Positions 18,735 to 33,164 of a stretch of 34,719 nt of DNA are shown here, one piece after another. The notes under the pieces are model-generated. The model made no database searches. It had not been told where the DNA came from and saw only the letters and a list, made by a program, of their open reading frames with translations. Position 1 is the stretch's first letter, and every line of letters starts with the position of its first letter. The position numbers and the translations under genes were made by a program. The DNA is from an uncultured Bacteroidota bacterium (GTDB lineage: Bacteria > Bacteroidota > Bacteroidia > NS11-12g > UBA955): positions 1 to 34,719 of the forward strand of contig CALMKH010000316.1 of the NCBI GenBank assembly GCA_937867025.1. Direction: 5' to 3'.

Positions 18735-20300
18735 GTGTGTGGTTTTACCAGTTTTGCTATTTTGGAAGAAAAAAAGATATATAATGACAGCGGTATCGAA
18801 ATAGCCAGGTGCTATGGAGATGAACAGCCCGGAAAGTTCCCATATACCAGGGGCATCAGGGAAGACATGTACAGGGGAAGGCTCTGGACCATGAGGCAGT
18901 ATGCCGGATTTTCGACAGCGGAAGAGTCCAATAAGAGATATCATTACCTATTGAGCCAGGGCACTATGGGTTTGTCTGTTGCATTTGACCTGCCAACACA
19001 GATTGGTTACGACAGCTCGCATGAGTTCGCGGAAGGCGAGGTTGGCAAGGTAGGTGTGGCCATTGATTCGCTCAGGGACTTCGAAACATTGTTCCATGGC
19101 ATCAGGCTGGAAGATATTACCACCAGCATGACTATCAACGCCACGGCATCCACGTTGCTGGCCATGTATATCGCACTCGCCAAACAACAGGGTGCTGACC
19201 TTCACAAAATATCAGGCACCATACAGAATGATATACTGAAAGAGTATGCGGCAAGGGGTACATATATATATCCGCCCAAACCGAGCATGCGTATCATAAC
19301 GGATATATTTGAATACTGCAGCAGGGAAGTGCCTAAATGGAACACCATCTCCATATCAGGCTATCATATACGTGAAGCGGGCAGCACTGCTGCGCAGGAA
19401 CTGGCCTTCACACTCGCCAACGGAAAGACATATGTCAGGGCCGCGCTGGAGAAGGGGTTAGACATCAATGTGTTTGCAAAGCGGCTTTCATTCTTCTTCA
19501 ATGCGCATAACAATGTATTCGAGGAAGTGGCAAAGTTCAGGGCTGCCAGGAGGATGTGGGCGCATATGACCAAGTCATTGGGCGCAACGGATCCACAGGC
19601 ACAGATGCTAAGGTTCCACACGCAGACAGGAGGTTCGACATTAACAGCGCAACAGCCGGAGAACAATATCATACGTGTGACCATGCAGGCTATGGCTGCA
19701 GTTATGGGTGGAACGCAGAGCCTGCATACCAATGGTTTTGATGAAGCATTGAGCCTGCCTACAGAACATGCTGCAAAGATTGCGTTAAGAACACAGCAGA
19801 TCGTCGGGTATGAAAGCGGCATTACCCAGACAGTAGATCCTTTGGGCGGAAGTTATTATATAGAATCGTTAACGGACGAACTTGAGAAAATGGCTTATAC
19901 ATACATCGATGCCATTGATGCCATGGGCGGAAGTGTGGCAGCCATAGAACAGGGATACATGCAGGAACAGATAGCACGAAGCGCGTATCAATACCAGAAA
20001 CAGATAGAGAACAATGAAAAGATAATTGTTGGCGTTAACAAGTATACTGACATGGATGAGCAGGTGAAGCCCGTGTTCAAGATCGATGATTCCATCCGCA
20101 AGGTTCAGATGGCCAAGCTTGATCAATTAAAAAACGAAAGAAACAATACGGATGTTGAAGCGTGTCTGAACCGGCTTTCGGAAGCGGCGAAGAACGGAAA
20201 CAACCTTATGCCGCATATAATTGATAGCGTGGAAACATACGCCACGCTTGGGGAAATTGCAAATGAACTGAGAAAAGTATTTGGTGAATATAAAGGATAA
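18735..20300 (+). CDS. Methylmalonyl-CoA mutase catalytic (large) subunit without B12 domain
   Basis: Interconverts methylmalonyl-CoA and succinyl-CoA with adenosylcobalamin. At about 520 residues it holds only the substrate-binding TIM barrel and lacks the C-terminal cobalamin domain (DxHxxG), so a separate B12-binding subunit is needed. Substrate residues point to methylmalonyl-CoA: Tyr56 in [16 protein letters not shown] and Arg174 in [14 protein letters not shown]. Isobutyryl-CoA mutases have Phe and Gln at these sites. [14 protein letters not shown] and [18 protein letters not shown] are family landmarks. The start is uncertain: GTG 18735 lies very close to the preceding terminator, and TTG 18762 would give [14 protein letters not shown], which looks more like family N-termini. 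No partner subunit, epimerase or MeaB/ArgK is in the window. Confidence 0.93.
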
Positions 20301-20371
20301 GTAATGGTATGTGCATACATGAATGAATGGAAAAAAAGTTGTGAAAAAAGATATATAAAAGTAATGTGATA

Positions 20372-20520
20372 GTGTTGATTGCTTAATCGTAAATTACCAT
20401 GAAGTCTGGTAACATTTCCGAAAAAAAAAATTAATAATCAACACAAAAAAATTTTTTTAATAACTTTTTTTAAACGTAATTTCAGAATTGAATTCAAAAC
20501 TATACAGAAGCAATCAACAC
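20372..20520. promoter_or_regulatory. Inverted 12-bp repeat and AT-rich leader upstream of dnaA
   Basis: GTGTTGATTGCT (20372-20383) recurs as its exact reverse complement AGCAATCAACAC (20509-20520). The core AATCAACAC occurs a third time at 20436-20444. Between the outer copies lie long A and T runs. The last copy sits 21 nt before the dnaA ATG. The arrangement suggests a regulator site or autoregulation. The core does not match the DnaA box TTATCCACA. No clear TAnnTTTG box is seen. Confidence 0.5.
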
Positions 20521-20541
20521 ATTGAAAATCAACGAAATAAA

Positions 20542-21990
20542 ATGAGCATGAGTGGACAACAATTTAACGCAGAATCAGTTTGGGCGAATTGCCTGAAGAT
20601 AATAAAGGATAATTTACCTCCACAAAGTTACAAGACATGGTTCGACCCGATTAAATCTGTTAAGTTGGAAAATAAAATACTAACCATTCAGGTTCCAAGT
20701 CAGTTCTTTTATGAATGGCTTGAAGAACATTATGTCACTCTGCTTCAGAAAACTCTTAAGCAGGTGCTTGGTGTGGGATCAAAACTTGAATATAGCATCA
20801 TCGTTGAGAACAGCACGCCGACCAATGGTCCGTATACTATTAATGTACCAACAGGCAGCGGGAAGAAACCAGTTACCAACGAAGTGAACCTGCCGCTAAA
20901 TGTCACCAACAACATAAAGAACCCGTTTATTATTCCGGGCCTCAGAAAGATACCTATTGATTCACAGCTTAACCCCAAATACACGTTTGATAATTTTATT
21001 GAAGGCGAATGCAACAGGCTCGCAAGGGGCGCAGGTTGGGCGGTGGCTCACAACCCCGGAGGGACAGCTTATAATCCTCTGATGATTTTTGGCGGTGTGG
21101 GTTTGGGCAAAACACATCTTGTGCATGCTATCGGCAACCTGATCAAGCAGGTGAACAAGAACAAGACTGTCATCTATGTTTCAGCGGAAAGATTCGTCAA
21201 TCAGTATGTTGAATCCGTCAAGGCAAATAATCAGAATGACTTTGTAAACTTCTACCAGAGTCTCGACGTATTGATAGTGGACGACATTCATCAATTGTCA
21301 CAGAAGACCAGGACACAGGAAATATTTTTTACGATCTTCAACCAGCTTCACCAGTCAGGTAAGCAGATCATACTTACCAGCGATAAAGCGCCGAAGGATA
21401 TCAAGGATGTCGACGAACGGTTATTGTCAAGGTTCAAATGGGGCTTGTCAGCGGATCTCAGCATCCCCGATTTTGAAACCAGGATAGCTATCCTGGAGAA
21501 CAAGGCGTATGAAAGCGGTTTGTCATTGCATCGTGAAGTGGTTGAGTATATTGCCCATAATGTCGATAACAACATACGTGAGATAGAAGGCGCATTGATC
21601 TCATTGCTCGCCCAGAGCTCACTTAACAGGAAAGAAATTGACCTCGATCTCGCCAAGCAGATGATGAAGAACTTCGTCAAGAATGCCACGCGTGAGATCA
21701 GCATTGATTATATTCAAAAACTGGTATGCGATTTCTATAACGTATCGGTTGACAGTGTAAAATCCAAAACAAGAAAACGTGAAATAGTACAGGCCAGGCA
21801 GATAGCGATGTACTTTGCCAAGGACCTTACCAAAGCCTCGCTGAAAAACATCGGCACGCATTTCGGCAACAGGGATCACAGCACAGTCATTCACGCCTGC
21901 CAGACAGTGAACGACCTGATCGACACGGACAAAAAATTCCGTCATGATGTTGAGGAGCTGAATAAGCGCATCCGTATCAACACATATTAA
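20542..21990 (+). CDS. dnaA: Chromosomal replication initiator protein DnaA
   Basis: The initiator ATPase that binds oriC boxes and melts the origin. From ATG 20542 it is 482 residues. Domain I begins SVWANCLKIIKDNLPPQSYKTWF. A short linker follows. The AAA+ domain has Walker A GGVGLGKTHL (about 184-193), Walker B DVLIVDDIHQL, and sensor regions ILTSDKAPKDI and RLLSRFKWGLS. Domain IV carries the DnaA signature GNRDHSTVIHACQTV. DDIH in place of the proteobacterial DDIQ is, as I recall it, common in this phylum. A TTG at 20488 would add 18 residues unlike known N-termini and was rejected. An ATG two codons later is also possible. It appears monocistronic; the 260 bp after it to porP hold no gene I can support. 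Confidence 0.96.
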   Translation: MSMSGQQFNAESVWANCLKIIKDNLPPQSYKTWFDPIKSVKLENKILTIQVPSQFFYEWLEEHYVTLLQKTLKQVLGVGSKLEYSIIVENSTPTNGPYTINVPTGSGKKPVTNEVNLPLNVTNNIKNPFIIPGLRKIPIDSQLNPKYTFDNFIEGECNRLARGAGWAVAHNPGGTAYNPLMIFGGVGLGKTHLVHAIGNLIKQVNKNKTVIYVSAERFVNQYVESVKANNQNDFVNFYQSLDVLIVDDIHQLSQKTRTQEIFFTIFNQLHQSGKQIILTSDKAPKDIKDVDERLLSRFKWGLSADLSIPDFETRIAILENKAYESGLSLHREVVEYIAHNVDNNIREIEGALISLLAQSSLNRKEIDLDLAKQMMKNFVKNATREISIDYIQKLVCDFYNVSVDSVKSKTRKREIVQARQIAMYFAKDLTKASLKNIGTHFGNRDHSTVIHACQTVNDLIDTDKKFRHDVEELNKRIRINTY

Positions 21991-22189
21991 TTGCTGTAAG
22001 AAGGCTTGCAGTTCGTCAAATTTGCTTCTTTTTTATCCAGGCAAACTTCCCCTGCGGAAGGAAGTCCATGTTATACGCAAAGTATTGATAACATTGATCT
22101 TTGCGGTGGTATTGCCTGTGCAGTTGTGCAAGTATGCGGAGTTTTCAACGGTTTGCGATATTTCCGGGGGGCAATAATTGGCAAAAAAA

Positions 22190-22221
22190 TTTGTTTAATT
22201 GATAATTTCCCTTCAAATTTG
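22190..22221 (+). promoter_or_regulatory. Candidate promoter of porP/sprF
   Basis: TTTG (22190-22193) and CAAATTTG (22214-22221, one mismatch from TAnnTTTG) are 20 nt apart. The ATG at 22249 is 27 nt downstream. Confidence 0.45.
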
Positions 22222-22248
22222 TAAATCTTAGTGTATATAAACAGGCCA

Positions 22249-23331
22249 ATGAAAAAAACCCTACTCTCTCTCGGTATAATCTCGGTTTTCATAAGTAAAA
22301 CCGAACTGGTACAAGCGCAGCAGGATCCTTATACAACGCATTACGCTTTTAACAGGATGTTGTATAATCCCGCGGTGGCAGGATCAAAGGACAGATATTG
22401 CTTAACAGCCTTATCGCATTACCAGTACCTGGGTTACGAAGACAGGACAGTTGAATTCTGGCCCGATCCAGCCACTCCGAACAGCCCGCAAAGACCGCCG
22501 GCCAACAAGATGGTTGGACCAAAGACCCAGATGTTTTCATTTTCCGCTCCGCTTCCGAAAAAATACGGTGGGTTAGGCATCGGGTTTATCAATGATAAAT
22601 TGGGGTATGAAAGCAGCACGCACGTCAAGATTGACGCGGCGGGAAGGCTTCCTCTCAGCGCGGATGAAGCATCACTCTCCGTTGGTGTTGAGATCAATTT
22701 CCTCCAGAAAGGCATTAACGGAACACAGCTCAGGCCATTGGTTCCAAATGATCCGTCCATACCAAAGCAGCAGGTCAATGACAGGAACGTCATTTTCGGC
22801 GCCGGAGTGTATTATACCAACACCATGGCTAACTCTGCCGGTTCCATGCGCGACCTCTGGGTGGGCTATTCTGCGTTAAATCTCAACCAGCCGACATTCG
22901 TGTTCGGCAATAATATCGTATTTGCCACACCTGTAACCCACCATTATATCATGGGAGGTATCACAATGACCGACTTTATGGGAAACCCCAATATGAAGCT
23001 GCATCCTTCAGCCATGATCAAGTATAACAGGGGGATCACCCAGCTGGATATCACGGGTCTGGTTGAATTCCAGGAAAAGCTTTGGGGCGGACTGGCATAC
23101 AGGACTACTTCTGACGCATTGTCCATCATGCTGGGGTATTCCGGTTTTAAGGGCACTTTCCAGGGCTTGAGGATCGGGTATTCTTATGACCTGACACTGA
23201 GCAGGATACTTAGTGTTTCTTCAGGTACTCATGAGATACAGCTAAACTACTGTTTTGATATCAAGATCCCGCCTCCGCCAAAAATCAAAATTCTTACGCC
23301 ACCGTTCATGAACAAAACGGCTGACGAATAA
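22249..23331 (+). CDS. T9SS outer membrane protein, PorP/SprF family
   Basis: PorP/SprF proteins are outer-membrane beta-barrels that work with the T9SS trans-envelope core, some as partners of specific cargo. The 360-residue protein has a signal peptide (about 1-23, ending VQAQ). The family hallmark QQDPYTTHYAFNRMLYNPAVAGS is at the mature N-terminus, and many amphipathic beta-strands follow (for example KYGGLGIGFINDKLGYESSTHVKIDAAGRLPL). The C-terminal FQGLRIGYSYDLTLSR and the final strand HEIQLNYCFDI also fit the family, with a proline-rich tail. ATG 22249 was chosen over an in-frame GTG at 22231 because the signal follows it directly. Its position directly upstream of gldKLMN matches porP-porKLMN in Porphyromonas and supports a core T9SS role. 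Confidence 0.92.
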   Translation: MKKTLLSLGIISVFISKTELVQAQQDPYTTHYAFNRMLYNPAVAGSKDRYCLTALSHYQYLGYEDRTVEFWPDPATPNSPQRPPANKMVGPKTQMFSFSAPLPKKYGGLGIGFINDKLGYESSTHVKIDAAGRLPLSADEASLSVGVEINFLQKGINGTQLRPLVPNDPSIPKQQVNDRNVIFGAGVYYTNTMANSAGSMRDLWVGYSALNLNQPTFVFGNNIVFATPVTHHYIMGGITMTDFMGNPNMKLHPSAMIKYNRGITQLDITGLVEFQEKLWGGLAYRTTSDALSIMLGYSGFKGTFQGLRIGYSYDLTLSRILSVSSGTHEIQLNYCFDIKIPPPPKIKILTPPFMNKTADE

Positions 23332-23401
23332 AAATTGCGGAAAATTTTAAATTCGACACAATATTTGGTTTATTATTTTCGTTACAGCAGTATAAAAGTT
23401 A

Positions 23402-23431
23402 TTGACAATTGTTCAAAAACTCTTATATTTG
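23402..23431 (+). promoter_or_regulatory. Consensus Bacteroidota promoter of gldKLMN
   Basis: TTG (23402-23404), 19 nt spacer, then TATATTTG (23424-23431), a full TAnnTTTG match. The predicted start of transcription is near 23437, about 40 nt before the gldK ATG. This gives gldKLMN a promoter separate from porP. Confidence 0.7.
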
Positions 23432-23477
23432 CAAATTAACACATAGCTTACACACACATAAACAATATAAATTAACC

Positions 23478-24905
23478 ATGAAGAAACAAATGGATTTTGT
23501 TGTCAAGAACCTGAAAATGACGGCATTGAACAAGAAAGATAGGTGGAGAAAGGTGTTTAAGTCCGGACGATTGGCACTGATTCTAGGCCTTTTTACATTT
23601 GCTGGCTGCGGTCCTAAGAATACCGGTGACCTTATAGGTGTTCAGGGCAGGGGATTATGGTTCCATCCACAGCCTTACGGAACGGTTTATATTCCTTCCG
23701 GAACTTACCACTCCGGCCAGAGGGATCAGGACGTTTTCCAGTCATTCGTAGCGCCTAACAAGCAAGTGAGCATCACAGCATTCTGGATGGATGAAACAGA
23801 GATATCCAACAATGAATACCGCCAGTTTGTTGATTTTGTAATTGACTCCATCAAAAGGGTAAGGACTGGCGATCAGGCCTTATTCACTGAATTCGGGGAA
23901 AATTACGATGGTAATGACGATATCAACGAAGGTCTGGGTTTCATTAATTATGAAGTAGAGCCTGAGTGGGAAAAGTACAATGACGAGCTTTCCAGCCTGT
24001 ATTACGAAGCGGACAACCGTTTCAGGGGCAAGAAGCAGCTCGACGTGAATCAGCTCATTTATGAATATGAATGGATTGACCTTCAGTATGCGGCTACCGA
24101 TCCTGAAAACCAGAACAAATACCAGAAAGACAGGGTAAATAACCGTAAGAAATACATCAAGAAGGAAAAAACCCTTGTCTATCCGGACACACTGTGCTGG
24201 ATCAGGGATTTCACATACTCCTATAACGATCCTATGGCACGCCATTACTATAATCACGTAAAATACGACGATTATCCGGTTGTTGGCGTTAACTGGCATC
24301 AGGCAAATGCATTTGCGATCTGGAGAACCATTTATAAAAATACATACTGGGAGTCTTTCAATGATCCTATCACTGAAGATTTCAGGTTGCCTACAGAATA
24401 TGAATGGGAATATGCTGCCAGCGGCGGCAGGGTAGCCAGCCCATATCCCTGGGGAGGTCCTTATACCAGGAACAGTAAAGGTTGTATGCTTGCCAACTTC
24501 AAGCCTCTGAGGGGTAACTACGGAGCTGATGGCGGTATGTACCCGGTAAGGATAGATTCTTATTTCCCTAACGATTACGGACTATACAATATGGCCGGCA
24601 ACGTAGCGGAGTGGACCAGCAATGCCTGGAGCGAACAGTCACACATCTTCACGCATGATCTGAACCCTGACTACAGGATCAGCATCAATGAGTATACTAA
24701 AGACCAGAACAATGATTATGCCGGTCCTGAAACTTCTCCGATGACCCTGAAACGTAAAGTCATCAAAGGCGGAAGCTGGAAAGACGTAGCATATTTCATC
24801 CAGAACGGAAGCAGAACGTACGAATACCAGGATACATCCAAGAGCTATATAGGCTTCCGTCTGATCCAGACTTATATAGGACGTTCAAACAAGGATAGGA
24901 AATAA
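23478..24905 (+). CDS. gldK: T9SS/gliding lipoprotein GldK (PorK)
   Basis: Outer-membrane lipoprotein that forms the periplasmic ring with GldN in the T9SS. The 475-residue protein has a lipobox FAGC (C44) after an unusually long charged N-terminus; a later ATG at 23517 would shorten it to C31. The mature part is a formylglycine-generating-enzyme/sulfatase-modifying fold. It contains YGTVYIPSGTYHSGQ, FWMDETEISNNEYRQFVDFV, YPVVGVNWHQANAFAIWRT, FRLPTEYEWEYAASGG, NMAGNVAEWTSNAW and the end GGSWKD-to-YIGFRLI. A family-specific insertion (about 130-250) is rich in Asp, Glu, Tyr and Lys. The catalytic cysteines of true FGE are absent, as expected of a structural homologue. First gene of gldKLMN. 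Confidence 0.95.
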   Translation: MKKQMDFVVKNLKMTALNKKDRWRKVFKSGRLALILGLFTFAGCGPKNTGDLIGVQGRGLWFHPQPYGTVYIPSGTYHSGQRDQDVFQSFVAPNKQVSITAFWMDETEISNNEYRQFVDFVIDSIKRVRTGDQALFTEFGENYDGNDDINEGLGFINYEVEPEWEKYNDELSSLYYEADNRFRGKKQLDVNQLIYEYEWIDLQYAATDPENQNKYQKDRVNNRKKYIKKEKTLVYPDTLCWIRDFTYSYNDPMARHYYNHVKYDDYPVVGVNWHQANAFAIWRTIYKNTYWESFNDPITEDFRLPTEYEWEYAASGGRVASPYPWGGPYTRNSKGCMLANFKPLRGNYGADGGMYPVRIDSYFPNDYGLYNMAGNVAEWTSNAWSEQSHIFTHDLNPDYRISINEYTKDQNNDYAGPETSPMTLKRKVIKGGSWKDVAYFIQNGSRTYEYQDTSKSYIGFRLIQTYIGRSNKDRK

Positions 24906-24938
24906 TAACGCTTTAAGCATAAGATACAGGCAATTAAC

Positions 24939-24962
24939 GGATACCCTGGAGACAGGGTATCC
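24939..24962 (+). promoter_or_regulatory. Perfect hairpin in the gldK-gldL intergenic mRNA
   Basis: A 10-bp perfect stem (GGATACCCTG with CAGGGTATCC) is capped by GAGA, a GNRA-type tetraloop. It is followed by an A/T-rich stretch without a T tract, so it is not a normal terminator. It lies 66 nt before the gldL ATG and could protect the downstream mRNA or mark a processing site (inference). Confidence 0.75.
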
Positions 24963-25028
24963 TTCAATAAATAAAAAAATAACAATATAAATAACAATTT
25001 AACATTAACCTAAAAACAATTTACAATT

Positions 25029-25694
25029 ATGAGCAGTAACAGCATTTTTGAGAGTAAAGGATTTAAAAAAGTAATGGCTTACGTTTACGGATGGGGAGCT
25101 TCAATCGTAATTATCGGTGCCTTGTTTAAAATCATGCACTGGCCAGGAGCTAACTTCATGCTAATCGCAGGACTCGGAACCGAGGCCATCATCTTCTTTA
25201 TTTCCGTATTTGAACCTATACATGCGGAGTATGACTGGAGTCTTGTATATCCTGAACTGGCCGGTATCGAGCCTTCAGAAAAGAAAGCCAAAACCCAGGG
25301 AACCATTTCTCAACAATTGGACAAGATGCTTGCAGAAGCAAAAGTTGGTCCTGAGTTGATCGGAAGTCTCGGCAACGGTTTAAAATCACTGAGTGACAAT
25401 GTGAAGGATATGTCATCCCTGAGCAATGCTACCCTTGCAACCAACGAGTACACCAACAACATCACAAAAGCTTCAAAAGCTATTGAGAATATCGGAGCGG
25501 CATCAAGCGAGATAAGCAACTCTATGTCTTCATTTGCCGGCGGTCTTACTACCATGGTGAATAACCTGTCTGCCACTGCAAACGACAGTGCTGAATTCAA
25601 GGAAAATATAGGTAAACTGAACAAGAACCTGGGAACCTTGAACTCTGTATACGGCAGCATGCTGAGCGCTATGGGTGGTGCTGCACGTAACTGA
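25029..25694 (+). CDS. gldL: T9SS motor stator protein GldL (PorL)
   Basis: Inner-membrane subunit of the proton-driven GldL/GldM motor. The 221-residue protein has two membrane helices (about 16-35 and 42-62) flanking GALFKIMHWPGANFML. K34, H37 and E52 correspond to the conserved Lys, His and intramembrane Glu that are functionally required in Flavobacterium GldL. The remaining 150 residues are cytoplasmic: a Lys/Ala-rich linker and a long helical region rich in Ser, Asn and Ala (for example TKASKAIENIGAASSEISNSMSS). In characterised systems five GldL surround the helices of a GldM dimer. It is the only gldL in the window. A strong hairpin precedes it. Confidence 0.95.
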   Translation: MSSNSIFESKGFKKVMAYVYGWGASIVIIGALFKIMHWPGANFMLIAGLGTEAIIFFISVFEPIHAEYDWSLVYPELAGIEPSEKKAKTQGTISQQLDKMLAEAKVGPELIGSLGNGLKSLSDNVKDMSSLSNATLATNEYTNNITKASKAIENIGAASSEISNSMSSFAGGLTTMVNNLSATANDSAEFKENIGKLNKNLGTLNSVYGSMLSAMGGAARN

Positions 25695-25742
25695 TTTTTT
25701 AATTTTTCTGAAAATAAGATATAAGAAAGGAGAATTAAAAAA

Positions 25743-27338
25743 ATGGCAAGTGGAAAATTATCACCGCGGCAGAAAATGATCAACATGATGTACCTCGTGT
25801 TGATCGCTTTGTTGGCGCTTAACATCTCAAATGAAATCCTAAAAGCGTTTCACCTGATGGAAGTGTCCTTTAACAAGGCAAACCAGGCATTGACTGATAA
25901 AAACAAGGCTCTGATGGATGCTTTCAAAGCAGCAGAGGACGATCCTGCAAAGGCAGCAAGAACCAAGAGGTGGGCTGAAAAGGCCAGGGAAGTTCAGAGG
26001 ATTTCCGATGAGTTCTTTAAGAAAATTGAAGTCTATAAAAAAGACATAGAAGTAGCTGCCGGAGGCAGAAAAGAAGCTGAACCGGGTGAAACCGGCCTCA
26101 GGGAAATGAGCAAAGGTGATGACATGGAAGGGCATAAGCACTATCTGGGAACGGATGATGCCAAGCCGGGCAAAGGCGATGAGCTCAGAAAGCTTATCGA
26201 TGATACGCGTGTCAAAATGCTTAAAGTTCTTGAAGGTGTTAAGGATGATAAAGCTACGATTGCATTATTTGACAAGAATACCGCATTCAGGGTAGAGGAT
26301 TTCAAAGATGACAACGGTGCTCAGAAGACCTGGCAGAGGGACGTATTAGGTAAATCTCCTGTAGCAGGAGTTATGGCTATGCTGACCAAAGTGCAGAACG
26401 ACTGCAAATCCCTTGAGACAGACATACTCACCAAACTCGCAGAGAATATTGATGCTTCAGTGGCTAAGTTCGACAAGACCGCCGCATTGATCATTGCAGA
26501 ATCTACCAACGTTATGGAAGGCTCGCAATTCAAGGCTAAAGTGGCCCTGATGGCTTATAACTCCACTGCAGCTACCAAAATTCTTGTAAACGGTCAGACG
26601 GTAAATGTTGTTGACGGTATCGGTGAATACACTGCTACTGCCAGCGGCGTAGGAACACACAAAGTGGAAGCCAAGATCGAAACCATCGATCCGAATACAG
26701 GCGGGCCTACTTTTGTATCCGCACAGCCTATTGAATGGACTTCATTCAAATCTACCGCTACCATCTCTGCAGATGCAATGAACGTTCTGTATATCGGTCT
26801 CGACAACCCAATGTCCATTTCAGTTCCCGGTGTAACTCCAGGTAATACTACTGTTACTCCAGGTCCAGGACTTACGCTCACAAAATCAGGCGAAGGCAAG
26901 TACATTGCAAAGGTTACCGGAGGTAAAGAAACCAGCATTTCGGTAAGCGCAAAAATGCCTGACGGAACCTCTAAAAGGATGGGAGAACCGATGAAATTCA
27001 GGATCAAGAGCGTTCCAAAACCCGTAGCCCAGTTGGGGACACTTATTTCAGGATCATACAACAAGGGTGAAATCGCGATGCAACAAACACTGTATGCTTA
27101 CCTCGACGGCTTCGTTTTCGACGGTGTGAAATTCACCATTACCAAGTACAGGGTGATCTTCATGCCTAAGAGGGGTTATATGGAGGACAGGCAGGTATCC
27201 GGTAACAGTGCAGCTGCTATCAGGGAATACGCCAACAAGGCAAAAACAGGGGATATGCTGGTTATCGAAGGTATCAGGGCTAATGGTCCTGGTGTAGTCG
27301 ACAAACCGCTTAACCCGATCACATATACATTTAAATAA
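25743..27338 (+). CDS. gldM: T9SS motor/shaft protein GldM (PorM), copy 1
   Basis: Dimeric protein spanning the periplasm and coupling GldL rotation to the GldK/GldN ring. The 531-residue protein has a short cytoplasmic N-terminus with R9 (in LSPRQKMINMMYLV) and one membrane helix (about 13-33). Four periplasmic domains follow: a helical D1 (about 35-230, with AGVMAMLTKVQNDCKSLETDIL), then beta-rich D2-D4 (MEGSQFKAKVALMAYNS; SISVPGVTPGN; the C-terminal YNKGEIAMQQTLYAYLDGF). R9 is the residue that pairs with the GldL Glu in characterised motors. AAAGGAG lies 11 nt before the ATG, an unusually good ribosome site for this phylum. It is followed after 8 nt by gldN. A diverged second copy lies at 28628. 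Confidence 0.95.
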   Translation: MASGKLSPRQKMINMMYLVLIALLALNISNEILKAFHLMEVSFNKANQALTDKNKALMDAFKAAEDDPAKAARTKRWAEKAREVQRISDEFFKKIEVYKKDIEVAAGGRKEAEPGETGLREMSKGDDMEGHKHYLGTDDAKPGKGDELRKLIDDTRVKMLKVLEGVKDDKATIALFDKNTAFRVEDFKDDNGAQKTWQRDVLGKSPVAGVMAMLTKVQNDCKSLETDILTKLAENIDASVAKFDKTAALIIAESTNVMEGSQFKAKVALMAYNSTAATKILVNGQTVNVVDGIGEYTATASGVGTHKVEAKIETIDPNTGGPTFVSAQPIEWTSFKSTATISADAMNVLYIGLDNPMSISVPGVTPGNTTVTPGPGLTLTKSGEGKYIAKVTGGKETSISVSAKMPDGTSKRMGEPMKFRIKSVPKPVAQLGTLISGSYNKGEIAMQQTLYAYLDGFVFDGVKFTITKYRVIFMPKRGYMEDRQVSGNSAAAIREYANKAKTGDMLVIEGIRANGPGVVDKPLNPITYTFK

Positions 27339-27346
27339 AGACAAAT

Positions 27347-28183
27347 ATGAAGATTATCTTTTCAGCCATATTGATGCTAACAGCCTTTACCATGAAGGCC
27401 CAGGTGAACTATGCTGATTTCATTACAAGTGGAGAACACAACAGTTACAAAAAGGTAGCCGTGCGTGAAAGGCCGATTATCGCTTATCCCCCGCTCAGGG
27501 AAGCTGACGTTAAATTCTCCAGGCGTGTGATCAGGTGCATAGACGTGCGTCAGAAAATGAACAAGCAGCTTGAATGGCCGCGCCAGTCCCTTAACCGTCT
27601 TCTTTATGAAGGCCTGACTAAAGGTACTATCGTGGCATATAAGAGCGATTCCCTGTTGTCCTATTACAATACAGAGGATTTCACCAAAAGGGGCGGAGAA
27701 GAAATCATAACGTTCATATCCACTGACCCGGACGATCCGACTATTGGAAGAGACTCAGTATACTATGAGCCTTACAAATATGAAAGGATAAGGAAATACT
27801 GGCTGATGGAAGACTGGATATTTGATTATAAACATTCAGTGTTCAAACCAAGAATTGTTGCCCTTGCACCGATTTTCGCCCCTACAATCGGCGGTGTTAC
27901 CGGACGCGAGCAACCCCTTTGCTGGATCAAAATGGACGAAATCAGGCCGTTGTTAGCCAATACTGAAATGTTTAACAGGTATAACGATGCGATGAGGCTT
28001 AGCTTCGATGATTTCTTCCAGATGCGTATATTCGACAGTTACATCATATACGAATCGAATGTGTTTGACAATTACATCAATCAGTTCCAGGAATGGGAGA
28101 ATGATGCGGTAGGTGCATTGCTGAAAAGTGATGAAATCAAGAATGACCTGTTCATTTTTGAGCATGACCTGTGGCAATTCTAG
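27347..28183 (+). CDS. gldN: T9SS ring protein GldN (PorN), copy 1
   Basis: Periplasmic protein that forms the large ring with GldK at the outer membrane and receives GldM. The 278-residue protein has a signal peptide (about 1-19, ending MKAQ). The mature N-terminus VNYADFITSGEHNSYKK is followed by LREADVKFSRRVIRCIDVRQKMNKQLEWP. The central region has YWLMEDWIFDYKHSVFKPRIVALAP, and the conserved C-terminal block contains TEMFNRYNDAMRLSFDDFF and IYESNVFDNYINQF and ends FIFEHDLWQF. Last gene of the gldKLMN transcript; a terminator lies 32 nt after its stop. Confidence 0.95.
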   Translation: MKIIFSAILMLTAFTMKAQVNYADFITSGEHNSYKKVAVRERPIIAYPPLREADVKFSRRVIRCIDVRQKMNKQLEWPRQSLNRLLYEGLTKGTIVAYKSDSLLSYYNTEDFTKRGGEEIITFISTDPDDPTIGRDSVYYEPYKYERIRKYWLMEDWIFDYKHSVFKPRIVALAPIFAPTIGGVTGREQPLCWIKMDEIRPLLANTEMFNRYNDAMRLSFDDFFQMRIFDSYIIYESNVFDNYINQFQEWENDAVGALLKSDEIKNDLFIFEHDLWQF

Positions 28184-28214
28184 CCCTCTGCATGATCAAT
28201 AGAAAATAATGAGA

Positions 28215-28242
28215 AATCCCGGAGAAATCCGGGATTTTTTTT
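28215..28242 (+). terminator. Intrinsic terminator of gldKLMN
   Basis: AATCCCGG (28215-28222) pairs with CCGGGATT (28229-28236) around a 6-nt loop and is followed by a run of T residues to 28242. It separates the first gldMN pair from the second. Confidence 0.9.
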
Positions 28243-28393
28243 GCTTGTTACATGGGTTTTGGGCCCCTATTTTATTTGTGTTGTGGCACTTGAAAAAGGG
28301 CAATAAAATTGCAGTAATCACGTTGTATATATAGAATCAGCAACAACAATGAAATGATCAACAATATGAATAATTATATCAACTCCTGCATCA

Positions 28394-28559
28394 GCGTTCG
28401 TATTGAACAGAACGAATGATCTGAACAGATTCATCCGAGGGACAGATTACCCCGTCAATTCCTGACGGGAGCCGCTTAAATTTCAATTCAGGGATTACCA
28501 AAAAGGAAGAAGATCTTCCGTGGCAATGCTTTGCCTTTACTGCTGCCGGACAAGTCCGG
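28394..28559 (+). promoter_or_regulatory. Structured leader region upstream of the second gldMN pair
   Basis: The gap 28243-28627 encodes no convincing protein but holds a run of small perfect stems: TTCGT/ACGAA (about 28398-28416), ATCTG/CAGAT (28419-28430), CCCGTCA/TGACGGG (28451-28469), GGAAGA/TCTTCC (28505-28519), GGCAA/TTGCC (28522-28535) and CCGGAC/GTCCGG (28546-28559). A weak -7-like TTTATTTG lies at 28271-28278. If transcription starts near there, a leader of more than 300 nt would carry these stems, compatible with a cis-regulatory RNA or a separate small RNA. No known riboswitch class was recognised. Confidence 0.45.
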
Positions 28560-28627
28560 AGGATGAGGTATTCATGCCCCGGGAACAGATCAACAGGATC
28601 AGACAAACCAACTAAATAACATATAAC

Positions 28628-30211
28628 ATGGCAAACAGAACATTAACACCACGGCAAAAGATGATCAATATGATGTACCTCGTATTGATAGCCCTCCTGG
28701 CATTGAATGTTTCGAGGGAAATATTGAAATCCTTCCATTTGTTTGAGCTGTCATTCATCAATGGCAACAAACATACGGAAGCAAGGAATGCAGAGATCAT
28801 GCAGGCATTCAACAACGGCATGAACAACGAGAAGACCAGGGCCAGGACTGAAAAATGGTATGGCCTGGCTGTAGAAGCGAGAAAGGTATCCAAGGAGTTT
28901 TGCGATTACGTTGAAAAAATGAAGGCCGATATCGTCGAGCGGGGCGGCGGCAGGGAAGAAGCCGAAAAGGGCAATACCGAGCTCCCTGAGCTTAAAAGGC
29001 CTGACGATATGGAGGAACATGCACATTATTTCATAGACGGGGGACTCGCTAACGGCAGGAAATTGCAGAACAAGATCAATGAAACACGTGAAAAGCTTGC
29101 AGCACTTGTCACATCAGCCAGGTATGGCGAGGCTATAAGAAATTCGCTGGTTAAAAAGACGCAGCTGAGGGCTGTGGATCCGGCTGACCGCAAATCCGCA
29201 AACTGGGTGAGCACATACCTTGAAAATGCACCGCTCGCAGGAGTAGTCACCCTCCTTACAAAAACACAGAACGACTGCAAGGCCCTCGAGGCCGATGTAC
29301 TCACAGTCCTGAATGAAAACATCACCATTGAATCCATTTCCAATAATGCGCAGGTGGCCATGATCATTCCTGAGAACCAATCTGTCATGAGCGGACAGAA
29401 TTTTAATGCCAAAATAGCCCTTATGACCTATGATACACACGTCGGTGCCCAGATGCTTGTCAATGGTCAGCCGGTAACTGTAACCAATGGAATAGGTCAT
29501 ATCAGCATACCGGCATCCGGAACAGGTACGCATACCCTGCAGGCCAGCATTGAATCAGTTGACCCAAAGACCGGTGAGCCGGTGATGGTGAGATCAGAGC
29601 CTGTCACCTGGAACTCTTACCAGGCATCGGCATCCATATCAGCCGATAACATGAATGTGCTGTTCATTGGTCTTGAAAACCCCATGTCCATCTCTGTCCC
29701 CGGGGTAACTCCTGAGAATACCATCGTCAGTTCGACCAATGGCATTGTGCTCCGCAGCCTCGGTGCGGGGAGATACATGGCCAGGGTCAGCGGCAACAGG
29801 ACATCCGGCAATATTAATGTCAGTGCACGGATGGGTGACGGCTCCATAAAAAGCATGGGAAGCCAGTCGTACAGGATACGCAAGGTGCCTACTCCCAAAT
29901 TCATGCTGGGCAACCTTCCTTCCGGGTCGTATGAAAAATCGACCATTATAGCCCAGCATTACCTGTATGCCTACCTGGAAGATTTTTATTTCAAGGATGT
30001 GAAATTTACGATCAACAAATACCGCCTTCACCTTGTTACAAAACGCGTTATCCCTACAAACGAAATAACTGTTCATGCCAACACGCTGAACCAGGCCAAA
30101 TCGCTTATCGGCCAGGCCAGGTCAGGCGATGTTATTTACATTGATGAAATCAGCGCAAGCGGCCCAAGCGGAGCAGTGCGTTTAGAACCTGTCACTTATA
30201 AAATCAAATAA
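28628..30211 (+). CDS. GldM (PorM) paralogue, copy 2
   Basis: A second complete GldM, 527 residues, with the same architecture as copy 1: cytoplasmic LTPRQKMINMMYLV with R9 kept, one membrane helix (about 13-33), helical D1 (NAPLAGVVTLLTKTQNDCKALEADVL) and beta-rich D2-D4 (SGQNFNAKIALMTYD; SISVPGVTPENT; the C-terminal YEKSTIIAQHYLYAYLEDF). The membrane segment is nearly identical to copy 1 while D1 and D3-D4 are clearly diverged, so this is not a very recent duplication. No frameshift or loss of key residues is visible. It is followed after 2 nt by its own gldN. It has no paired gldL and would have to share the single GldL of the window or use one elsewhere. Confidence 0.93.
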   Translation: MANRTLTPRQKMINMMYLVLIALLALNVSREILKSFHLFELSFINGNKHTEARNAEIMQAFNNGMNNEKTRARTEKWYGLAVEARKVSKEFCDYVEKMKADIVERGGGREEAEKGNTELPELKRPDDMEEHAHYFIDGGLANGRKLQNKINETREKLAALVTSARYGEAIRNSLVKKTQLRAVDPADRKSANWVSTYLENAPLAGVVTLLTKTQNDCKALEADVLTVLNENITIESISNNAQVAMIIPENQSVMSGQNFNAKIALMTYDTHVGAQMLVNGQPVTVTNGIGHISIPASGTGTHTLQASIESVDPKTGEPVMVRSEPVTWNSYQASASISADNMNVLFIGLENPMSISVPGVTPENTIVSSTNGIVLRSLGAGRYMARVSGNRTSGNINVSARMGDGSIKSMGSQSYRIRKVPTPKFMLGNLPSGSYEKSTIIAQHYLYAYLEDFYFKDVKFTINKYRLHLVTKRVIPTNEITVHANTLNQAKSLIGQARSGDVIYIDEISASGPSGAVRLEPVTYKIK

Positions 30212-30213
30212 AT

Positions 30214-31080
30214 ATGAACACTCACTTTGAAACACTGGCAAAACCGTCCATGACAGTCCTTATGGCCGCTGTAATGGCTGTTCCTGCATGGTCGCAGGTC
30301 AACTATTCCGATTTTATTCATTCCGGCGGGGAGATGACTTCTTACTCAAAACCGGCGGTATATGAGCGGCGGTTTGTTCCCGGGCCATCATTAAGGGAGG
30401 CCGATGTGAAATACAGCAAGCGTATTGTCCGCTGCATCGATACCAGGCAAAAGATGAACAAGCAACTGGAATGGCCGCGGCAACCGCTGAGCGGGGTACT
30501 GCGCAACGGGTTGATGGAAGGATCCATAGTGCCCTACCGGAATGATTCCATGTCTTCAGCCTATACAGTAACGGGGATCAGGGACAGACTGGGATACTGG
30601 AAAGTAGTGTCCATAAGCGTTAATCCCGAGGATCCGGAAGAAACCATTGATACCAGCATCTGGATAGAGTACGATTTTTCCAAAATCCATAAGTACTGGA
30701 TCATGGAAGACTGGATATTCGATTACAAGCATTCAAAGTTTTCGCCGAAGATCATAGGATTGGCTCCCGTATATCGCCCGGAGCTCGAAACCCTTGTAGG
30801 CAATGAGCAACCGATGTGCTGGATCAGGATGGATGATATCAGGCAGACATTGGCCAATACCGAAATGTTTAACAGGTATAACGATGCAGCGAGGTTAAGC
30901 TATGACGATTTTTTCCAGATGCGGATATTCGACAGCTATATCGTGTATGAGTCCAACGTATTTGATAATTATATCAGTCAGTTCGAAGAATATGAAAATG
31001 ATCAGGTGGCAGCGTTGCTTAAAAGCGATGCTGTTAAAAATGACCTGTTCATCTTCGAGCATGACTTATGGCAATTTTAA
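30214..31080 (+). CDS. GldN (PorN) paralogue, copy 2
   Basis: A second complete GldN, 288 residues. The signal region (about 1-27, ending PAWSQ) is longer and more charged at its start (MNTHFETLAKPSMTVLM) than in copy 1. Conserved blocks are VNYSDFIHSGGE, LREADVKYSKRIVRCIDTRQKMNKQLEWP, YWIMEDWIFDYKHSKFSPKIIGLAP, TEMFNRYNDAARLSYDDFF and the end NDLFIFEHDLWQF, whose last 13 residues equal those of copy 1. The middle region (about 95-150) is diverged. The arrangement recalls the gldN/gldO paralogues of Flavobacterium johnsoniae, but here gldM is duplicated too. Followed by a strong terminator. Confidence 0.93.
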   Translation: MNTHFETLAKPSMTVLMAAVMAVPAWSQVNYSDFIHSGGEMTSYSKPAVYERRFVPGPSLREADVKYSKRIVRCIDTRQKMNKQLEWPRQPLSGVLRNGLMEGSIVPYRNDSMSSAYTVTGIRDRLGYWKVVSISVNPEDPEETIDTSIWIEYDFSKIHKYWIMEDWIFDYKHSKFSPKIIGLAPVYRPELETLVGNEQPMCWIRMDDIRQTLANTEMFNRYNDAARLSYDDFFQMRIFDSYIVYESNVFDNYISQFEEYENDQVAALLKSDAVKNDLFIFEHDLWQF

Positions 31081-31109
31081 TTCTTCCTTTTTTCTATTCC
31101 GATTAAAAT

Positions 31110-31134
31110 GCCCCGGATATTCCGGGGCTTTTTT
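31110..31134 (+). terminator. Intrinsic terminator of the second gldMN pair
   Basis: Perfect 8-bp stem GCCCCGGA (31110-31117) with TCCGGGGC (31121-31128), loop TAT, followed by six T residues. Confidence 0.92.
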
Positions 31135-31308
31135 CTGGATAACATCCTGACTTGTATCCCGGATGTCCCGCCGCAATTGCTTCAAAGCCAGCTACATGGC
31201 AAATGGAAAGGGGCGCTGGAGTGCCTGTCTTTCCCGGTCTCTCACGCGTTATTCCCCGGCTCATCCCTCACGTAACAAATCTTAATTCATAAATCCTAAA
31301 ATTTTGCG

Positions 31309-31316
31309 TACCTTTG
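31309..31316 (+). promoter_or_regulatory. -7 box upstream of typA
   Basis: TACCTTTG fully matches TAnnTTTG, 36 nt before the ATG at 31353. No clear TTTG is seen about 20 nt upstream. The rest of 31135-31308 shows nothing I can name. Confidence 0.45.
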
Positions 31317-31352
31317 CAAACTTTTACCGAACGGGCAGCCCCGTAAAAACAT

Positions 31353-33164
31353 ATGCAACAACCCATCAGAAATATCGCCATTATAGCTCACGTCGACCAT
31401 GGAAAAACAACACTGGTAGATAAAATCCTTCATCATTGCAACCTGTTCAGGGAGAATGAAGAATCCGGTGAATTGATCCTTGACAGCAACGACCTGGAAA
31501 GGGAGCGCGGAATTACCATCTTTTCGAAGAACGTTTCCGTTCAGTATAAAGGAATCAAGATCAATATTATAGATACTCCCGGCCACGCAGATTTCGGAGG
31601 TGAGGTGGAGCGCGTATTGAAAATGGCCGACGGTGTGGTATTGCTTGTGGATGCTTTCGAGGGTCCCATGCCCCAGACACGTTTCGTGTTGCAGAAGGCG
31701 CTTCAGCTTGGCTTAAAACCGATCCTGCTCGTCAATAAAGTAGATAAGGACAACTGCAGGCCAGATGAAGTGCATGAAGCAGTGTTCGACCTGTTCTTTA
31801 ATCTTGATGCTACGGAAGAACAGCTCAGTTTCCCGACAATTTACGGAAGCAGCAAGCATGGCTGGATGAGTACAGATTATAAGGTAAGGACCGAAGATGT
31901 GGGTCCGTTGCTGGACTGCATACTTGATTATGTGCCTGCTCCTGCCATACACGAAGGAACCTTGCAGATGCAGATCACATCGCTCGACTACAGCAATTAC
32001 CTGGGACGTATTGCAGTAGGCAAGATACACAGGGGCACGGTGAAGGAAAACCAGCCAGTGACTCTCGTCAGGAATGACGGAACCATGGCAAAAATGAGGG
32101 TAAAGGAACTTTACACGTTTGAGGGCCTTGGTAAGAAGAAGGTCGCGGAGCTCATGAACGGCGATATATGCGCCATGGTAGGGATTGAGAATTTCCAGAT
32201 AGGGGATGTGGTGGCGGATTTTGAAAACCCCGAAGGCATGGAGAAGATCAAGATCGATGAGCCTACGATGAGCATGGTATTTACCATCAATAATTCTCCG
32301 TTCTTTGGCAAGGAAGGCAAATTCGTTACATCCAGGCATCTCAGGGAAAGGCTTGAAAAGGAAACAGAAAAAAACCTGGCCCTCAAGATTGAGGATACGG
32401 ATAGCCCTGACTCCATTCTGGTTTACGGTAGGGGTGTTTTGCACTTGTCTATCCTGATAGAAACCATGCGAAGGGAGGGATATGAACTTCAGGTCGGCAT
32501 GCCAAGGGTGATCGTAAAGGAAATAGACGGCGTCAAATGCGAACCGGTAGAAATGCTGGTGGTGGATGTGCCCGAGGAATTCGCGGGTAAAGTGATAGAG
32601 CTGGCTACACAGAAAAAGGGTGAGTTACAGGTTATGCAGCCCAAAGGCGATATGCAGCACCTGGAATTCAAGATACCGTCGAGAGGCCTGATGGGTTTGA
32701 GAAGCAATATGCTGACAGCTACCCAGGGCGAGGCTATAATGGCCCACAGGTTTATTGCCTATGAGCCATGGAAAGGGGATATCCCCGGCAGGTCGAACGG
32801 TTCGCTGGTGAGCATGGAGACAGGCACCAGTACCGCGTATTCCATTGACAAAATGCAGGACAGGGGTATTTTCTTCATTGATCCGGGCGAAGAGATTTAC
32901 GAGGGTCAGGTGGTAGGAGAGAATTCAAGACAGGATGATATGGTACTTAACCTTGTAAGAGCCAAGCAGTTAACGAATTTCAGGGCCGCCGGTAAGGACG
33001 ATTCAGCTAAAATGGCGCCCAAGCGGCAATTTTCACTTGAAGAAGCGCTGGAATACATACAAAAGGATGAGTACGTGGAGCTTACGCCTAAATCACTGAG
33101 GATCAGGAAAATATATTTGAAGCAATCCGACCGTGAGAGAAATGCCAAGCAAACACTGTCATAA
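31353..33164 (+). CDS. typA: Translational GTPase TypA/BipA
   Basis: Ribosome-associated GTPase involved in stress and cold adaptation and in 50S assembly. The 603-residue length is normal. The G domain has G1 AHVDHGKTT (12-20), switch region [15 protein letters not shown]3 [16 protein letters not shown] and G4 NKVDK. Domain II begins [25 protein letters not shown]. Domains III and V (EF-G-like) and the TypA-specific C-terminal domain follow, with [25 protein letters not shown] and the ending [15 protein letters not shown]. It appears monocistronic and is unrelated to the T9SS locus. Confidence 0.96.

Follow-up and report, generated by a model that had tools for sequence, protein, structure and literature searches.

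A second gldM-gldN module, probably an old tandem duplication, beside a single gldL stator gene in an uncultured Bacteroidota genus

A 34,719-bp contig of an uncultured Bacteroidota bacterium (GenBank assembly GCA_937867025.1, contig CALMKH010000316.1; this whole stretch of DNA is hereafter the window) carries a type IX secretion system (T9SS) locus in which one gene for the stator protein, GldL, is followed by two complete pairs of genes for the shaft protein, GldM, and the ring or track protein, GldN. The second pair, gldM2-gldN2, is probably (about 0.6, in our estimate from comparative sequence analysis) an old tandem duplication that has been kept as a minor, faster-evolving shaft-ring pair on a shared GldL stator and a shared GldK/GldJ scaffold. 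Within the genus the module is inherited and constrained; its genes are intact, a terminator sets it off from gldN1, and a promoter-like element of the type found before gldK stands in front of it. A shared stator is suggested because the source genome has one full GldL and one GldK, together with two GldM and two GldN proteins. This genome is a draft of 3.69 Mb in 319 contigs, 93.7% complete, and the window is its contig C316; throughout, labels beginning with G, L, and C denote genomes, loci, and contigs, respectively.

The gene order in the window is mcm-dnaA-porP-gldK-gldL-gldM1-gldN1-terminator-gldM2-gldN2-terminator-typA, with full-length reading frames for all four gldM and gldN genes and with mcm, dnaA, and typA named by eye. 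An earlier reading of the letters alone (the original prediction) had described the porP-gldKLMN order, a terminator, and a second gldM-gldN pair with a terminator of its own, and all of its genes and coordinates hold. The features of the locus, all on the forward (+) strand, are as follows.

22231..23331, +: porP (PorP/SprF family), start of the T9SS cluster; TIGR03519, 210 bits (cut-off 90.6)
23359..23383, +: promoter-like element CAATAT-N15-CGTT upstream of gldK; pattern match
23409..24905, +: gldK; TIGR03525, 517 bits
25029..25694, +: gldL; TIGR03513, 202 bits
25743..27338, +: gldM1, first shaft gene; TIGR03517, 312 bits (cut-off 180)
27347..28183, +: gldN1, first ring/track gene; TIGR03523, 144 bits (cut-off 86)
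28211..28240, +: intrinsic terminator 3' of gldN1; terminator scan
28301..28324, +: second promoter-like element, CAATAA-N14-CGTT, upstream of gldM2; pattern match
28366..28419, +: possible 17-codon leader open reading frame (ORF) between element and gldM2; 21 codons with an upstream in-frame ATG
28628..30211, +: gldM2, second shaft gene; TIGR03517, 307 bits (cut-off 180)
30214..31080, +: gldN2, second ring/track gene; TIGR03523, 134 bits (cut-off 86); Pfam GldN, 197 bits
31110..31128, +: terminator-like site 3' of gldN2; terminator scan
31353..33164, +: typA, right flank; named by eye

gldN1 and gldM2 are 444 bp apart, and the real start of gldK probably lies downstream of the TTG at 23409.

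The second gldM-gldN pair is neither a chance resemblance nor an assembly error, since gldM2 recurs in nine other genomes of the genus and a complete gldN2 in seven of these. Altogether, 10 of the 17 genus genomes carry gldM2 (G000, G003, G004, G006, G007, G009, G012, G013, G014, and G015), eight of which have a complete gldN2, while the gene is cut by a contig end in G009 and absent from G015. Four genomes (G001, G002, G005, and G008) have just one module, in which gldN is the immediate neighbour of typA, and in G010 a contig end cuts the locus. The left flank is conserved as far as the contigs reach, in contrast to the right one: in G000, G003, G013, and G015 the second module is followed by typA, which was not found within the 2.9–7.2 kb read past gldN2 in G004, G006, G007, G012, and G014. 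Among 77 relatives searched, 69 had a GldM over the cut-off, and outside the genus four of them (G047, G067, G070, and G072) had two. In a phylum-wide sample of 198 genomes, 49 had a GldM over the cut-off, and two such proteins occurred only in the source genome (0 of the 48 others). The two-GldM state is therefore rare overall, although not unique.

In profile searches, the two GldM and the two GldN proteins all score well above the curated NCBIfam equivalog cut-offs. GldM1 and GldM2, which are 45% identical, each possess all four Pfam GldM domains, and GldN1 and GldN2 are 60% identical. GldM2 belongs to the GldM/PorM family by its equivalog match, its four-domain architecture, and an N-terminal membrane helix bearing Arg9, and it matches PDB 7cmg_A with an E-value of 6e-50 across residues 8–521; GldN2 belongs to the GldN/PorN equivalog family, with parts of the core kept. 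In characterised motors, Arg9 of GldM contacts Glu49 of GldL. This arginine, aligned with PDB 6ys8_A, is kept in 10/10 genus GldM2 proteins and in 15/15 other genus GldM proteins. The membrane segment (residues 1–33) has 73% of its columns invariant and identical between the two classes, versus 9–27% in the four periplasmic domains, bearing out the earlier statement that both copies retain R9 and a nearly identical membrane segment. Gene conversion was considered as a cause of this near-identity and was rejected by same-codon use: in 14 of 15 bins, use of the same codon was 0.36–0.51 within genomes and 0.37–0.45 across genomes, the fifteenth being a 6-column bin at the GldM end (0.62, n = 29, vs. 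0.44). Since synonymous codons agree hardly more within than between genomes, the similarity, as judged from codon comparisons, is the work of selection on the membrane segment. The two GldN copies were also said to end in the same 13 residues; the ending is indeed shared, but it is not special to the pair, as the motif NDLFIFEHDLW[QE][YF] and its variants occur family-wide, and a common C-terminus was rejected as a distinguishing trait.

The differences between the two shafts are unevenly spread. Class-specific fixed residues occupy 14 of 201 positions in the first periplasmic domain (D1) vs. 3 of 297 in D2–D4 (Fisher p 0.0005), with two more, residues 28 and 30, within the first 33. Among these fixed residues are positions 35, 39, 41, and 53, which fall, as mapped by residue number only, within or close to helix 1; passages of one structural paper (PMC5790014) show that GldM D1 packs and makes its dimer contact through this helix. 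D4 has the highest GldM2/GldM1 rate ratio among the periplasmic domains (2.67), close to the GldN2/GldN1 ratio of 2.54 (8 genomes), and the same passages report that the D4 domain of PorM is sufficient to bind PorN in Porphyromonas gingivalis (PMC5790014). The ratio of 13.9 for the membrane segment rests on a nearly invariant GldM1. This pattern fits a GldM2 that may keep what GldL needs and differ where GldM meets GldM (D1) and GldN (D4).

A single full stator gene was found. With the full-length GldL model (TIGR03513), the window gldL is the sole gene over the cut-off in the source genome, and profile searches of this 93.7% complete draft revealed no second full GldL; a genome-wide search had been proposed with the original prediction, against which a second gldL paired with gldM2 would have told. 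The Pfam GldL_N model gave three matches over the cut-off, namely the window gldL and proteins of 133 and 138 aa on C81 and C274. The latter two were rejected as second stators; they are short, lack the glutamate of the second transmembrane segment, and are missing most of the C-terminal part. By eye, one of their loci (L002 for C81 and L003 for C274) follows a glyA-like gene and the other a PadR-like regulator gene. Glu52 and Glu62 of the window GldL align with Glu49 and Glu59 of the Flavobacterium johnsoniae protein (PDB 6ys8_G alignment); as stated in portions of one study, Glu49 is required for the T9SS-active state and Glu59 for gliding only (PMC8986121). Within the genus, 15 of the 17 genomes have exactly one GldL over the cut-off, while G011 and G016 have neither GldL nor GldM over the cut-off and are uninformative on stator number. 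The core stator is thus single, and GldL-like proteins may still exist beside it. Much the same holds for the scaffold: the source genome has a single GldK over the cut-off (TIGR03525), as do 14 of the 17 genus genomes overall, with a GldK cut at a contig end in G005 and none in G011 or G016. One GldJ-like protein was found in the source genome, at 437 bits against a cut-off of 458 (short form, 373 against 383). GldN, together with GldK and GldJ, has been modelled as the gliding track on which the motors push (PMC12635249).

Phylogenetic trees show the genus GldM1 (13 rows) and GldM2 (10 rows) as one clade each, with support of 100, and GldN2 as one clade with support of 92/92, recovered in 94% of bootstrap trees. 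The same species groups (G000+G009, G003+G013, and G004+G006+G007+G012+G014) recur in the trees of all four proteins, as expected for vertical inheritance, and the placement of G015 and the deeper forks vary among them. A concatenated tree of PorP, GldK, GldL, DnaA, and TypA (17 rows, four of them under half filled) nests G005 and G008 within gldM2-bearing lineages, and a loss of gldM2 in these two is the most economical interpretation. In the GldM tree, the one GldM of G001/G002 joins GldM2 (100/96; approximately unbiased (AU) test p 0.015 and 0.019 against two alternatives, the groups tested having been named after the first tree was seen); on this evidence it may be an old GldM2, and the duplication may predate the branching-off of these two genomes. 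Trees had been proposed as a means of dating the event; they resolve the GldM2 and GldN2 clades, but the species tree leaves the genus root open and the date undecided.

Purifying selection acts on both genes of the second module. The ratio of nonsynonymous to synonymous divergence (dN/dS) for gldM2 and gldN2 could be computed in 13 of 18 comparisons and lay there at 0.023–0.104, and for gldM1 and gldN1 it was 0.033–0.111 in 17 of 18; synonymous sites were saturated in four gldN2 comparisons, one gldM2 comparison, and one gldN1 comparison. None of the ten gldM2 genes has an internal stop. In the six more distant genome pairs, dN of the second module was 1.6–6.4 times that of the first, and in the three closest pairs the ratio was 0.8–1.2 for gldM2 and 0.8–3.6 for gldN2. 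Synonymous divergence was also higher for gldM2 (8/8 comparisons) and gldN2 (5/5), as weaker codon selection would give. Codon usage in the source genome also differs. Measured against 23 genes of the ribosomal operon region in that one genome (codon adaptation index (CAI) 0.642–0.801), gldK (0.750), gldL (0.734), gldM1 (0.739), and gldN1 (0.734) group with the ribosomal proteins, while gldM2 (0.667) and gldN2 (0.629) fall with average genes, inside the 0.627–0.698 range of 19 other window genes. The two modules of the original prediction are both retained but not equal by codon usage, and G015, with gldM2 and no gldN2, shows that they can be separated.

The intergenic region suggests that the second module may be transcribed on its own account. 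A terminator scan over 22000–31500 gave 13 sites vs. 9.4 (sd 3.5) in shuffled sequence, so that single sites weigh little; the real support for a gldN1 terminator is the recurrence of a stem that begins 16–36 nt past the gldN1 stop in 10/10 gldM2 genomes. In all ten, the element CAATAW-N14/15-CGTT comes after this terminator, followed by a short ORF and then gldM2, while in the four single-module genomes (4/4) the terminator is present and the element is absent from the gldN-typA gap. The ATG-started ORF has 17 codons in nine of the ten genomes and 18 in G013, with upstream in-frame ATGs that would lengthen it in G000, G009, and G013; its length is conserved and its sequence poorly so, and it is a possible leader peptide. 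In 92 loci searched with the strict pattern, the element was present in 42 of 79 distinct porP>gldK gaps (0.35 expected by density) and in 10 of 14 gldN>gldM gaps (0.12 expected). Some genomes are represented by more than one locus; identical gaps entered the count a single time, although total length and hits were not de-duplicated, and the expected density includes the element hits themselves. Because the pattern was built after the gldM2 gaps had been seen, the gaps before gldK test it more independently. Read individually, nine of the ten positive gldN>gldM gaps are from the genus and the tenth is from L052; near matches occur in L051 and L093 (CAATAC, spacer 13), and a site in L053 resembles, by eye, the one before its own gldK.

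Elsewhere in the source genome, surroundings were read for 71 matches besides the two in the window, with one match on C313 left out. By a crude rule, 19 of the 71 lie outside genes, and 15 of these have a downstream ORF, four of which were identified by profile: gldA (422 bits, cut-off 403), a PorE-like fragment (224 bits, under the cut-off of 600), a TolQ/ExbB-like gene, and a TonB-like gene. None of the other 11 looked T9SS-like by eye, with no profile scan made of them. One more match, initially scored as falling within a reading frame, sits immediately upstream of a porP/sprF gene, and the GldJ-like gene comes after that gene. Because the element stands before gldK and gldM2 as well as before gldA, porP/sprF-gldJ, and the porE-like gene, gldM2-gldN2 looks like a transcription unit of its own within a T9SS regulon; other sites are probably due to chance. 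The sites before the TolQ/ExbB-like (L212 on C297) and TonB-like (L182 on C138) genes may perhaps belong to a wider envelope-energy regulon, or may themselves be chance. The spacing and CGTT box resemble extracytoplasmic function (ECF) sigma factor promoters. The standard Bacteroidetes promoter motif, TTG/TAnnTTTG, was found before gldK and, with the strict pattern, not before gldM2. A sigma-70-type scan of the region was set aside, its 20 sites comparing with 17.9 (sd 5.0) for shuffled sequence, and Rfam yielded no RNA at the gathering threshold in 20000–32000. Compared by eye, the motif published for SigP of P. gingivalis looks unlike the element, and passages of the same report state that SigP did not bind upstream of porK (PMC4800418). 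The possibility that gldM2 and gldN2 are silent, which the original prediction had named as telling against it, is made less plausible by the purifying selection and the candidate promoter.

Taken together, a short transcript of gldM2 and gldN2 alone would start at the element, at a level below that of gldKLMN. GldM2 would enter the common GldL pentamer by way of its almost unchanged membrane segment, and its fast-evolving D4 tip would push GldN2 subunits seated on an outer-membrane scaffold of GldK (and a GldJ-like protein) common to both modules. Two kinds of shaft-ring contact, differing in output, attachment partner, or cargo, could then be driven by a single stator. The earlier suggestion of alternative or mixed shafts on one stator remains plausible in this light, with one stator, two retained modules, and an intact membrane/Arg9 segment in its favour. 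More tentatively, it is conceivable that the GldL population is shared by two rotor types: an abundant GldM1-GldN1 type, for example for the GldJ-K-N gliding track, and a minor, differently tipped GldM2-GldN2 type made from its own T9SS promoter copy, for example for a separate secretion hub or a cargo-specific contact.

Several observations weigh against a retained second shaft-ring pair as set out here. GldM2 evolves faster than GldM1 in every domain, and general relaxation would also give the joint acceleration of D4 and GldN2. Distance correlations do not single out GldM2-D4 and GldN2 (r 0.96, vs. 0.95 with GldN1), so this distance-matrix check did not discriminate on the gldM2-gldN2 co-evolution that the original prediction had proposed to examine with trees. 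GldN2 has a single class-specific fixed residue, R59K (10 GldN1 and 8 GldN2 rows). At several class-specific GldM sites, moreover, single-copy relatives have the GldM2 state, and it is therefore GldM1 that changed there rather than being simply the unchanged copy. In G015 (96% complete), gldM2 is directly followed by typA, an adjacency made likely by an 18-base end shared by contigs C79 and C111 (by eye), and only one core GldN was found genome-wide; GldM2 and GldN2 are therefore not strict partners throughout the genus. The whole module has apparently gone from G005 and G008, and is thus dispensable. Finally, the element is called a promoter from its position and geometry only, the source genome has 74 pattern matches vs. 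45 for a reversed control, and the majority of matches lie away from T9SS genes.

Other explanations must be weighed against these data. In favour of an assembly or binning artefact, the genus records L036–L044 are metagenome-assembled genomes and the source genome is in 319 contigs; the same order after porP-gldKLMN nevertheless recurs in separately assembled genomes, with the typA flank as well in G000, G003, and G013, and we regard this explanation as extremely improbable. It is also conceivable, if unlikely, that the second copy is simply a source of additional GldM and GldN for a cell rich in T9SS cargos. Matches to Por_Secre_tail number 63–150 in the ten gldM2 genomes, in six of which scoring ended at 150 candidates so that their counts are lower bounds, and 63, 71, 83, and 119 in the four single-module genomes. 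Scaled by completeness, the gldM2 genomes have more (at least 77–215 vs. 72–120; exact Mann-Whitney p 0.008, 10 vs. 4), as they do per Mb of first-look candidates (p 0.014), and gldM2 shares its promoter-like element with gldK. Genome size and shared ancestry confound this comparison, which amounts to a hint only; identities of 45% and 60% are far from those of dosage copies, and in the one genome analysed it is gldM1 and gldN1 that look highly expressed while the second pair has ordinary codon usage.

A duplicate on its way out, tolerated as redundant under relaxed constraint and lost piecemeal, would explain the raised dN in the distant pairs, the loss of gldN2 in G015, the apparent loss of the module in the G005/G008 lineage, and a broken gldM copy in the same-family genome G027/L071. 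We think this improbable: dN/dS is still low where computable, no gldM2 has been interrupted by a stop, the terminator, element, and short ORF are retained in all ten genomes, and L051–L053 kept a similar module separately. Rather doubtful, too, is an obligate or preferred mixed dimer, in which GldM2 would partner GldM1 inside GldL and make a permanently asymmetric shaft. The concentration of class-specific residues in D1, including positions in or near the dimer-contact helix 1, speaks for such a dimer, but the single-module sisters G001, G002, G005, and G008 do without a second module and codon usage suggests unequal amounts of the two proteins.

A second pair retained on one stator would make the genus a natural test of the interchangeability of parts in a 5:2 rotary motor. 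Portions of one survey describe no excess of GldM over GldL (PMC9389320), and this genus therefore departs from that trend. If two shafts are indeed powered by GldL, what the T9SS motor does would be decided by shaft tip and ring, a point relevant to the way in which gliding and secretion draw on one energy source; and if two rotor types exist, evolution would be exchanging the shaft and not the stator, a possibility at which the recurrent duplication of gldM next to one core gldL hints. New here is the CAATAW-N14/15-CGTT element, which occurs before gldK in many relatives and recurs before gldM2, and which is a candidate T9SS/gliding promoter in many of the Bacteroidota loci analysed. No paper on a tandem gldM-gldN module was found in a search of the open-licence PMC literature. 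Elsewhere in the window, positions 4092–6110 encode a 672-aa protein of repeated Cys-containing modules that resembles a T9SS cargo, its C-terminal sorting domain having been judged by eye.

Comparable duplications occur elsewhere in the phylum, and on the GldM tree they arose separately from the genus module. L051–L053 have their own second gldM-gldN pair with one core GldL, the second GldM being sister to their first (Shimodaira-Hasegawa-like approximate likelihood ratio test (SH-aLRT) 97; 87/82 in another tree). A second gldM with one core GldL is also found in L093 (support 100/99) and in G047, G067, and G070, whose solo, unlinked gldM genes have a common origin (100/100), and G072 has two adjacent gldM genes (100/100). 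As in the window, a terminator and an element-like site precede the second gldM of L051, L052, L053, and L093 (by eye). Neither gldL nor gldN was found in the 8.7–15 kb fetched around the solo gldM genes; at these loci (L218, L219, and L220 in G047, G070, and G067, respectively), LNVD replaces LNVS after the membrane helix, and no gldK occurs in the stretch fetched. In L071/G027, one genome by identical places, gldK and one gldM are split into several frames beside two gldN and an intact second gldM, a duplicate that is apparently taking over from the broken copy. One strong core GldL (159–261 bits) is present in each of these genomes except G072 (84% complete), where only a divergent GldL was found, and some differ from the genus in having a divergent second GldL; L093's genome, G070, and some others have a further GldL that scores less strongly, near or over the cut-off. 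In six family-f2 genomes (G048:C33, G049:C8, G052:C31, G058:C36, G070:C193, and G072:C193), a divergent GldL-like gene adjoins an equally divergent-looking GldM-like one, apparently a second LM motor pair.

Beyond the T9SS, portions of one paper describe the AglRQS gliding motor, in which two MotB homologues, AglQ and AglS, work with AglR, and whether they form hetero- or homodimers is unsettled there (PMC9389320); the system is not a T9SS. In Xanthomonas campestris, the tonB-exbB-exbD1-exbD2 cluster likewise provides a 5:2-type motor with a tandem second axle gene, and exbD2 is not needed for iron uptake and is needed for other functions, as stated in part of the source (PMC3551730). It differs in belonging to the ExbD family, in having no ring or track subunit co-duplicated, and in a genome with two exbB and four exbD genes. 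The original prediction had cited the gldN/gldO pair of F. johnsoniae as a precedent for GldN only. This pair is not the sole precedent, given the separate gldM duplications above and the extra porM orthologues of F. johnsoniae noted in passages of PMC5790014, which likewise give more than one GldM-type protein per genome. According to a passage of PMC9127263, gldO is a second, partially redundant GldN paralog adjoining gldN; as far as that passage goes, the ring subunit alone is doubled there, whereas here shaft and ring are doubled together, with a terminator and a promoter-like element of their own.

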